A stretch of DNA of 64,000 nt from Halarcobacter anaerophilus. Lineage in GTDB: Bacteria; Campylobacterota; Campylobacteria; Campylobacterales; Arcobacteraceae. The stretch is from positions 868,001 through 932,000 of the forward strand of contig NZ_CP041070.1 in assembly GCF_006459125.1 (NCBI RefSeq). Reading direction: 5' to 3'. Every line of letters begins with the position of its first letter. The stretch's first letter is position 1. Position numbers and translations under genes: made by a program. Shown one piece after another: positions 48,080 through 51,806 of this stretch. The notes below the pieces were generated by a model that was given only the letters and a program-made list of their open reading frames with translations, was not told where the DNA came from and made no database searches.

Positions 48080-49144
48080 TTGGAAAACTTGCAAAGATAT
48101 TTAACTCACTCAAAAATTGACGTACTTTTTAAACAGACAAAAGAGGATTTTGTAGTAACTGAAGTACCTTTATATGAATTTAGCAATGAGGGTGAACATA
48201 TAATTATTAAATTTAGAAAAAAAGATCTGACAACTTGGAATGCGGTTCAAATATTTTCAGAACAGTTAGGATGTAAATCAAGAGATATAGGATATGCAGG
48301 ATTAAAAGATAAAAATGCAATGACGATTCAACATATCTCTGTTCCCAAAAGTTGCGAAGAGAGATTAGAAAAATTTAATCATGAAAATATAAAAATATTA
48401 GAAATAACAAGACATAACAATAAAATAAGAGTAGGGCATTTAAAAGGCAATAAATTTTTTATAAGATTAAAAAGAGTTACTCCTTTGGATGCAAAAAAGA
48501 TAGAAGAGGCTATTGCAAAAATAGCCGTGTACGGTATGCCAAACTATTTCGGTTTTCAAAGATTCGGAATAGAAGGAGATAATTATAAAAAAGGTGAAGC
48601 TATAGTAAAAGGTGAATTAAAAGAGAAAAATAGAAAGTTAAAACAGATGTTTATTAACTCTTATCAAAGTTATTTGTTTAATTCTTGGCTTTCAAAAAGA
48701 ATTGAAATTTCAAAACTTATTGAAGCTTTTAAGCCAAAAGAGATTTATGAAAAACTCTCTTTGCCTTTAGATCTTGTTGAAGAGATGAAGAATCAAAAGC
48801 ACCCTTTTAAAATTTTAAACGGAGATTTGATGAGTCATTATCCGTACGGAAAAATCTTTTATGCCGAAGATTTACAAAGTGAAGCAGATAAATTTTTTGA
48901 TAAAGATAGAGTTCCAACAGGACTTTTATGTGGAAAGAGAGTTAAAAACTCTATTGATTTTGCATATGAAATTGAAAAAGAATTTGAAGAAAAAATTTTG
49001 GAAAACGGGGCAAGAAGATTTGCTTGGATATTCCCAACTGAGATTGAATCAAATTATAAAGAGGATAAAAACTGGCTTGAACTGCAATTTGAACTTCCTA
49101 AAGGTTCGTATGCAACGGAGTTTATAGCTGAGCTGATTCATTAA
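48080..49144 (+). CDS. truD: tRNA pseudouridine(13) synthase TruD
   Basis: A 354-residue TruD starting at TTG after AAGGAAAAAG. The catalytic Asp is in GYAGLKDKNAMTIQHIS, and MPNYFGFQRFG (RNA-binding), FINSYQSYLFNSWLS and the C-terminal LQFELPKGSYATEFIAEL are typical. It isomerises U13 in tRNA-Glu. It is co-transcribed with thiL. Confidence 0.93.
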   Translation: MENLQRYLTHSKIDVLFKQTKEDFVVTEVPLYEFSNEGEHIIIKFRKKDLTTWNAVQIFSEQLGCKSRDIGYAGLKDKNAMTIQHISVPKSCEERLEKFNHENIKILEITRHNNKIRVGHLKGNKFFIRLKRVTPLDAKKIEEAIAKIAVYGMPNYFGFQRFGIEGDNYKKGEAIVKGELKEKNRKLKQMFINSYQSYLFNSWLSKRIEISKLIEAFKPKEIYEKLSLPLDLVEEMKNQKHPFKILNGDLMSHYPYGKIFYAEDLQSEADKFFDKDRVPTGLLCGKRVKNSIDFAYEIEKEFEEKILENGARRFAWIFPTEIESNYKEDKNWLELQFELPKGSYATEFIAELIH

Positions 49145-49235: not shown

Positions 49236-49595
49236 ATGACGTATGAAGAGCTTATAAAAGAGTTATGTGATGTGATAAAAGAGTCTGAAGAAAATGCTAT
49301 TTCAATTTATGATAATTTGGAAAAGATAGATACGACTCTTGAATCTTTAGATATTCCTAGTCATAAATTAACAAAAGTACAAGAGTTTATATCTGCTTCA
49401 TTTGGTTTGTTGCAGCATCAAGATATACATAGACAAAAGATTGAAAGAGTTGTTAACTTTGTTTGTGAAAATAAACATATTGATTCAAGTGAATATAATT
49501 TGGCCTCTTCTGCGAAACATATAGCAGGGGATTCAGGTGAAGAAGTATTAAGTAATGACGAATTGGAAGCTTTGATTCAAAGTATGAAAAACTAA
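49236..49595 (+). CDS. mini CheZ-like chemotaxis phosphatase with FliM-like tail
   Basis: A 119-residue, mostly helical protein. Residues 61-67 read HQDIHRQ, giving D63 and Q67 in the D-x3-Q spacing of the CheZ active site (D143 and Q147 in E. coli), inside a helix GLLQHQDIHRQKIERVV. The C-terminal VLSNDELEALIQSM (104-117) matches the CheY-binding N-terminal peptide of FliM (LSQDEIDALL) in 6 of 10 places. It is half the length of CheZ, as a single helical hairpin would be. It converges with a chemoreceptor gene. A CheZ-like role on CheY is inferred. Confidence 0.6.
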   Translation: MTYEELIKELCDVIKESEENAISIYDNLEKIDTTLESLDIPSHKLTKVQEFISASFGLLQHQDIHRQKIERVVNFVCENKHIDSSEYNLASSAKHIAGDSGEEVLSNDELEALIQSMKN

Positions 49596-49625
49596 TCAAT
49601 AAAAGGTTTTTTCCTTTTATTGATT
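49594..49625. terminator. bidirectional hairpin between the CheZ-like and chemoreceptor genes
   Basis: A perfect 13-bp stem (49594-49606 with 49613-49625) with a 6-T loop. It includes both stop codons of the convergent genes. Confidence 0.8.
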
Positions 49626-51806
49626 TTTACACGCCTCTTTTTTTAGATGATTCAGTGTTCCGAAAATTCTAAGTGATTCTATCTCTATAGCTTTTGCTTT
49701 ATCATTTAGAACTTCATTTGGTTTTTTATCTGCATTTGCATTAATCAAATCTTGGAATTTTACTGTTAGATTTTTGTTTAATTCTTTTAAATTTTCTATT
49801 ACTTCAACATTTGCATTTGGATTAATAGTTATATAGTTTTCTATCCACTTGTTAAGCTCTTCTGAACTCTTTGCAGTCCAAGCTTCATAACTACCTAACT
49901 TGGTATATACGCTGTCTTTTACGCTTAATACGTCAACTTTTAATTTTGCAGTGTCATATACCAAATCCACATTGCATACTTCTTCTCTTGCTTCTTCTAG
50001 GAAACTTGCCCTTGCAGCTGCTGTTACAAGTGAGTTAGACATATTAGCGATTTCAGTAGACATTTTAGAAATCTCTTCTGCAACTTGCGCATTTTTTTGT
50101 GTTGCTTGATCTAAAGTATTAACAGCATCGTTTATTTGAGTAATACCTCTTTCTTGCTCTCTTGAAGCATTTGCAACAAAATCGATTTTTTCAATAGTAA
50201 ATTGAATATTTTTATTTAAAATCTCATATCCGCCTATCATATCATCAGAGATTTTTTTACCTTCATTGGCTTTTGTTGTTGCATTTTCAACTAAATTTTT
50301 TATCTCTTTTGCAGCTTCGGCACTTCTGCTTGCTAAGTTTCTAACTTCTTGCGCAACTACCGCAAAACCTTTTCCTGCTTCACCTGCCGTTGCTGCTTCT
50401 ACTGCTGCATTTAAAGATAGAATATTTGTTTGGAATGCTATTTGGTCAATTACTTCAATAGCTTCGTTAATAGAGCTTATCTGGCTGTTAATCTCTTCCA
50501 TTGCTGTTGCAGTTTTATTTGCAAACTCTTGACCCGTATTTGCAGCTTTTGTAACATCACTTGCCAAGTTTGTCATTTCCACCGTTGTTTGGGTATTTCC
50601 TTGAATATTAGCAGTAATTTGTTCAAGTGCCGCTGCTGTCTCTTCAAGAGAGGCTGCTTGTTGGTTTGAAGATTCCGAAAGACTGTTTGAAGCAGTTGAT
50701 AAAGTATGGGTACTTTTATTTAAAGAGTCTCCTGTGTTCATAATCATAGCTAAGATCTCAGAAGTATTGTTCCCTACAAGTTTAATCCCTGCAGTTAGAG
50801 AACCTAAATCTCCGTAAATCCCTTTGTCATCAATTCTATAATCAAATTTTGATTCGGAATAGTTTTTTAAAGTGATATTGATTTTATCAAGAGTCTCTTT
50901 TGTATGTGAAATCATAGTATTTAGTTTATTTTTCAGATCTTCAACATATGGATTTGCAGCAGTTGATTCAACTTGATAAACAAAAAAACCGTTTCCTGTT
51001 TTTTCTAAAATATCATTTGCTTCTTCAATTACTTTTTCATCTTGTTTTAATCCCTCGTTCATTTTATCCATATAAGTGTTAAAAAGCTTGGCAACTTCTC
51101 CTACTTCATCTTTTGAAGATACTTCTAATTTAATAGTCGAATCATTTGAACTTAAAAGATTTTGAAATCCGTATTTAAGTGCTTCAATAGGTTTTGTCGC
51201 TCTTTTTACAATTATAAGAATCAGCCCTATTGTAATCCATCCGAATATGGTAGAAGCTAATAAAATCTCTATAATCAAATCTCCGATTCTATCATCGGAT
51301 TCATCTAAAGAGAAGGTTAAATCCATTACACCTATTACGTCGCCTTGTTTTTGGTTAACATGGCATAAAAGACACTCTTGTGTTGCAACCATAGGTTTAA
51401 TCATTCTTAGGTCATGCTGACCGTTTTCATCTGTTTCTATAAGCTGGTTTTTTTTACTTTTAAAAGATTCTAATATATCTTTGTCTTTTGTAAATTTTGT
51501 TCCGGGAGAATACATCTCGATAAGTGGTTTACTCTTTGCTATGGTAAGATTTTTAACACCTTTTATTGTTCTTGCTTGTTCTTCGGCTTTTTGTATTTGA
51601 GCCGGGTCACCTGTATTCATTGCATTTCTTAAACTCTGAAACATTGCAGTGTTTAACATTTCCAAATTGACTTTTGTTGTTGCTATGGCATCTTCTTTTA
51701 CTTTTGATGTTGTAAAATAAGCTACAATTAAACTTGACAGCGACATAAGAACAAAAAGAGCAAATATAATTTTATTACTTATTTTTTTCGTTATTAATTC
51801 TAACAT
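49617..51806 (-). CDS. methyl-accepting chemotaxis protein with periplasmic c-haem motif
   Basis: A 729-residue receptor. TM1 (about 14-32); periplasmic sensor (33-177) with a single haem-binding motif C145-L-L-C148-H149 followed by GDVIGVMDL, as in c-haem PAS-like sensors of Geobacter chemoreceptors; TM2 (178-200); HAMP (200-252); a long signalling coiled coil with the tip [19 protein letters not shown]; then a C-terminal domain (about 615-729) that aligns by pattern with CZB zinc-binding domains but without their His/Cys ligands. It probably senses redox state or gases (NO, O2). Convergent with the CheZ-like gene. Confidence 0.88.

Follow-up and report, generated by a model that had tools for sequence, protein, structure and literature searches.

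A shortened CheZ paralogue of Arcobacteraceae as a probable second phosphatase for CheY

CheZ is the enzyme that switches off the steering signal of bacteria, and it sets both the rate at which this signal fades and the place in the cell where it does so. For E. coli CheZ, a fragment comprising residues 70-133, with the hairpin tip near residue 100, is sufficient for polar localisation (PMC7750401). CheZ of H. pylori depends on D189 and Q193 and on its final 12 residues and can do without residues 1-39, the function of the N-terminal region being stated as unknown (PMC11237671). An earlier account of Arcobacter gave CheC as an alternative to CheZ (PMC2147049), and in the more recent description the cheZ gene and its partner appear as CheYz/CheZ, the main text naming one CheZ (PMC9321776). 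The protein reported here amends this picture, in so far as it is drawn in the main text of PMC9321776 and in PMC2147049, and the open literature searched yielded no description of it.

The window analysed is a 64,000-nucleotide stretch of the Halarcobacter anaerophilus genome. The initial annotation had singled out a short open reading frame at 49236-49595 as a CheZ-like protein of 119 aa, and this reading frame proved to be real, exactly as claimed; its ATG is preceded by an AAGG ribosome-binding site that we grade as good. We refer to the product as mini-CheZ. The features of the locus are as follows:

48080..49144, forward strand: truD (tRNA pseudouridine synthase), conserved upstream neighbour; NCBIfam TruD and synteny
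49236..49595, forward strand: mini-CheZ, 119 aa, ATG start, a shortened CheZ paralogue; open reading frame, NF041271 match, conserved family, dN/dS
49242..49346, forward strand: hairpin helix 1, residues 3-37; AlphaFold (mean pLDDT 90-97) and alignment
49359..49472, forward strand: hairpin helix 2, residues 42-79, with the catalytic motif QDIHRQKIERV; AlphaFold and alignment
49422..49436, forward strand: D63-I-H-R-Q67, predicted CheZ catalytic pair; invariant in 48 members, aligned with DxxxQ of full-length Campylobacterota CheZ, the pair known as D189 and Q193 in H. pylori
49509..49547, forward strand: flexible linker, residues 92-104; pLDDT < 50
49554..49589, forward strand: C-terminal helix, residues 107-118, NDELEALIQSMK; AlphaFold, putative FliM-like CheY-binding tail of CheZ type
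49594..49625, no strand: inverted repeat between mini-CheZ and chemoreceptor; 13 bp, fold -14.1 kcal/mol, z -7.9
49617..51806, reverse strand: chemoreceptor, 729 aa; Pfam MCPsignal, weak matches to HAMP and to Tll0287-like/Mcp40H-20 sensor families

The NCBIfam model of CheZ (NF041271) matches residues 57-117 of mini-CheZ over model positions 172-239 of 242 with an E-value of 2.8e-12; the score stays under the curated cut-off of 350 bits, which is reached in only 11 of the 299 genomes of the order. Relatives of intermediate length from other genera match the same model with E-values of 9e-27 and 3e-26. No match over the cut-off was obtained with the Pfam family (PF04344), a miss that is non-discriminating because full-length CheZs fail the same cut-off of 30.7 bits (19.3 bits for a Helicobacter-type CheZ and 18.5 for the full CheZ of this genome). 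The remaining Pfam matches of mini-CheZ were weak and meaningless, and none was of the CheC, CheX or FliY type, the structure model being an all-helical hairpin. Across an alignment of 48 mini-CheZ relatives six columns are invariant (Q60, D63, R66, Q67, E70 and A93), and residues 42-116 share 39% identity with the genome's own full CheZ, D63 and Q67 of helix 42-79 standing in register with D122 and Q126 of this paralogue. The spacing of D63 and Q67, which had been read as the D-x3-Q of CheZ, is present and invariant in these 48 relatives. By itself it is weak evidence, as DxxxQ appears in 30% of shuffles of the mini-CheZ sequence; it gains its meaning from the homology to CheZ and the invariance in the 48 relatives, and on the NF041271 match and the invariance of both residues we rejected a chance occurrence. 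Judged by sequence, mini-CheZ is a CheZ-family protein, as had been proposed. A profile search of this genome for CheC with PF04509 gave no match. Elsewhere in the genome, a 158-aa CheX/CheC-like reading frame (L151:1015-1917) that PF04509 misses adjoins a stand-alone cheY.

The C-terminus of mini-CheZ, EEVLSNDELEALI, is similar to the N-terminus of FliM from the same genome, MAEFLSQDEIDALL. The FliM-like character ascribed to the tail is thus real, but the join is not a new one: the tail is the ordinary CheZ C-terminal helix, every full-length Campylobacterota CheZ examined ending in SxDDIEALIASxG or similar, and a FliM-CheZ fusion was rejected for this reason. The arrangement of FliM itself, with an N-terminal peptide followed by the middle domain, was not found in mini-CheZ, whose peptide is C-terminal, and the genome's single FliM match lies elsewhere. 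Unusual in mini-CheZ, as far as sequence comparison goes, are two losses: the hairpin has been deprived of its outer half, and the N-terminal FliM-like peptide is missing. At the other end of the full-length Campylobacterota CheZs (L100-L129), the N-terminus MTQEELDALM closely resembles the CheY-binding peptide of FliM, and so does that of the long Arcobacteraceae CheZ (L006:1495-2601), MSMSQEEIESLM; these CheZs therefore have a FliM-like peptide at either terminus.

The genome, a single contig of 3.0 Mb, encodes one other CheZ of 368 aa downstream of a cheY (cheYz) in a flagellar cluster, and the suspicion that mini-CheZ is a second CheZ was correct. Known Campylobacterota homologs were said to be about twice as long, in agreement with the 228-252 aa found outside Arcobacteraceae and with the 368 aa of this paralogue. 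Most Arcobacteraceae genomes contain both the long CheZ and the short protein, and among the genomes examined outside the family there is nearly always one CheZ per genome. In a CheZ tree, which is unrooted and built on few columns, the short and intermediate forms fall together on one side of a branch (support 99/98.9; 100/99 in another analysis), and the full-length Arcobacteraceae CheZ forms a lineage separate from mini-CheZ (99/98.9). Since the forms of 152-171 aa found in other genera retain the N-terminal FliM-like peptide, the shrinkage of CheZ looks stepwise from the sequences at hand. Tandem duplicates of cheZ occur in two other Campylobacterota families (L143:2962-4161 and L144:2620-3841), the second copy in each case being without the N-terminal FliM-like peptide.

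AlphaFold predicts the mini-CheZ monomer as a helical hairpin (residues 3-37 and 42-79) followed by a low-confidence linker (92-104) and a tail helix (107-118), with D63 and Q67 on the second helix, so that the fold expected for a CheZ-like protein was indeed predicted. This predicted layout of hairpin, disordered linker and tail helix is that of CheZ, with a hairpin far shorter than usual. Foldseek returned no significant match of the model in the PDB, as may happen with a plain two-helix hairpin, and no CheZ came up when the PDB sequences were searched by profile. In the alignment mini-CheZ stays in register with full CheZ save for the deletions in the hairpin and at the N-terminus: the base of hairpin helix 1 (KVVHQLDDVTRDSExKATxIFDxLE, with which helix 1 of mini-CheZ aligns) is kept, and so are catalytic helix 2, linker and tail, whereas the hairpin tip with its surroundings (some 62 residues) is missing, as are the WPPPPP linker and the MTQEELDALM peptide of the N-terminus. 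In the model of the paralogue's C-terminal part the helices lie at 18-76, 81-147 (with D122) and 173-184; by comparison, mini-CheZ is shorter by about 24 residues on one side of the tip and about 21 on the other, and the distance from the tip to the catalytic aspartate is about 23 residues, against 44 in the paralogue. The invariant L..FP..F tip element of full-length CheZ (L73, F77, P78 and F83 in the paralogue) is absent. The tip segment is a docking feature and lies outside the catalytic site; it corresponds to the stretch (residues 70-133) by which E. coli CheZ localises to the pole. By analogy with the H. pylori protein, mini-CheZ would retain what CheZ function needs and drop what it can spare.

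Of 94 FliM-positive Arcobacteraceae genomes, about 89 contain mini-CheZ, whereas not one of the 10 FliM-negative genomes has it intact (Fisher p 1e-10, with related genomes counted and uncorrected for relatedness). In the FliM-negative genome G098 it is a pseudogene (L071:3490-3905, reverse strand) with stops and a D63 to Y replacement. Because of this co-occurrence and this decay, we conclude that mini-CheZ is tied to flagellar chemotaxis. Its reduced length relative to CheZ and the occurrence of tandem cheZ duplicates in other members of the order (L143, L144) could suggest a decaying, non-functional fragment of a cheZ duplicate; such a reading is close to certainly wrong, as dN/dS lies between 0.05 and 0.22 in all 13 pairs and so indicates purifying selection, the gene persists in some 89 of 94 flagellated genomes, and the one clear decay seen is in G098, which has no FliM. 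A pseudogene was likewise rejected on the dN/dS values and the invariant catalytic residues. In genome G102, a flagellin-like reading frame (L046:2529-3362, reverse strand) directly adjoins an intermediate-length CheZ.

On the strength of sequence, models and analogy, we consider it likely that mini-CheZ is an active, non-docked second phosphatase for the motor CheY (CheYz). Two copies would probably associate by way of their hairpins and so form a four-helix bundle of short length; on its flexible tether the C-terminal helix would capture phosphorylated CheY, and D63 and Q67 would enter the active site of CheY to speed its dephosphorylation as in CheZ. As this bundle is much shorter than in the CheZs of the literature consulted, the predicted activity could be low. 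Docking at the site of the full-length CheZ is improbable, since mini-CheZ lacks the outer hairpin half and the N-terminal FliM-like peptide; it would probably serve as a second sink of CheY-P that diffuses freely or is placed elsewhere. The motor-binding CheYz is the most likely substrate: in a comparison of five stand-alone CheY-like proteins from this genome, the FliM-binding residues W58, K91 and K119 (a criterion from PMC9321776) occur in CheYz only, so the FliM-like tail would be expected to prefer it. Another CheY (F7-CheY, CheYw, CheYc or CheYm) could be the substrate instead of the motor CheY, given that the full CheZ already lies beside cheYz and that four further CheYs are described for Arcobacter in PMC9321776; with the FliM-like tail, the restriction of FliM-binding residues to CheYz among the CheYs compared, and the coincidence of FliM loss with mini-CheZ loss, we find this quite unlikely. 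A regulatory role is very unlikely in our judgement, even if both proteins belong to the CheZ family and the models would allow the short hairpin to associate with the long one at its base: mini-CheZ would then act on the full-length CheZ by forming a hetero-dimer or through competition for CheY-P, itself contributing little catalysis, but its catalytic D and Q are invariant, and G026, G030, G091, G092 and G096 are without a second CheZ at E 0.001 in a search whose mini-CheZ query detects the long form weakly.

Mini-CheZ lies beside a chemoreceptor, and the adjacency noted in the initial annotation holds, with the qualification that the two genes are convergent in this genome. The inverted repeat between them is, to judge by its sequence, a probable bidirectional terminator common to both, and co-transcription here was rejected on the orientation of the genes and the strength of this repeat. 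A heme-c motif (CxxCH) starts at residue 145 in the sensor part of the receptor, and its conservation in 16 of 16 orthologues suggests a redox or gas sensor. The gene order thiL-truD-mini-CheZ-receptor-ruvA-ddl is widespread in Arcobacteraceae. The expected presence beside the receptor in relatives was borne out for most genera, in which the receptor orthologue adjoins mini-CheZ, and failed in several lineages, where mini-CheZ or an intermediate form has no adjoining receptor (L045-L047, L054-L056, L058, L059, L069 and L074). Mini-CheZ comes after the receptor gene on the same strand in six genomes of two genera (L049-L053 and L057), the two overlapping by 1-14 nt in five and separated by a gap of 23 bp in one, which suggests an operon in those two genera. 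The adjacency, the head-to-tail genes and the retained CxxCH would fit a receptor-coupled phosphatase that ends or biases the signal of the neighbouring heme-c receptor locally. We regard this as rather unlikely, in view of the convergent genes with their common terminator in this genome, the loci without an adjoining receptor and an adjacency that may be passive (the order thiL-truD-ruvA-ddl is conserved too); moreover, a diffusible CheY-P phosphatase could hardly target a single receptor. Specificity for the receptor thus stays at the level of the possible, and the more comprehensive proposal of a naturally minimal CheZ, stripped of its docking module and turned into a dedicated off-switch tied to the heme-c (redox or gas sensing) chemoreceptor, appears unlikely to us. 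If it were true, one receptor pathway would have its own signal decay amid several CheYs.

The chemistry and the family of mini-CheZ are known, and what is new is the halved hairpin, its family-wide conservation and its apparent absence from the open literature searched. A naturally halved CheZ, reduced to the catalytic base of the bundle plus the CheY-binding tail, reveals which parts of this enzyme may be dispensable, and in a genome with both forms the contribution of phosphatase activity can be told apart from that of its location. The forms of 119, 152-171 and 230-250 aa represent a ready-made deletion series.

In comparison with E. coli CheZ (PDB 1KMI; PF04344), mini-CheZ shares D-x3-Q on the second hairpin helix, the flexible linker and the C-terminal CheY-P-binding helix, but the E. 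coli hairpin comprises 134 residues (35-168) with a tip that docks to CheA-short, whereas that of mini-CheZ has about 77 and no counterpart of the tip. CheZ of Azorhizobium caulinodans is functional with a hairpin shorter than that of E. coli, although by only about 25 residues, and it has a long N-terminal helix (PMC7750401). The tandem duplicates (G294, G153) also provide a second CheZ without the N-terminal FliM-like peptide, yet they adjoin the full cheZ, have a longer hairpin and group with full-length CheZ. The long CheZ of this genome has the same D/Q and the same tail as mini-CheZ and differs in its long acidic N-terminus, which begins MSMSQEEIESLM, and its locus. Campylobacterota CheZ (NF041271; H. 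pylori CheZ/HP0170, the "remote CheZ orthologue") measures 230-250 aa against 119 and has the invariant FP tip element, the WPPPPP linker and MTQEELDALM, which mini-CheZ lacks; both share the catalytic helix QDIHRQKIERV, the base of hairpin helix 1, the SAKHIxGD linker and the C-terminal helix DELEALI.
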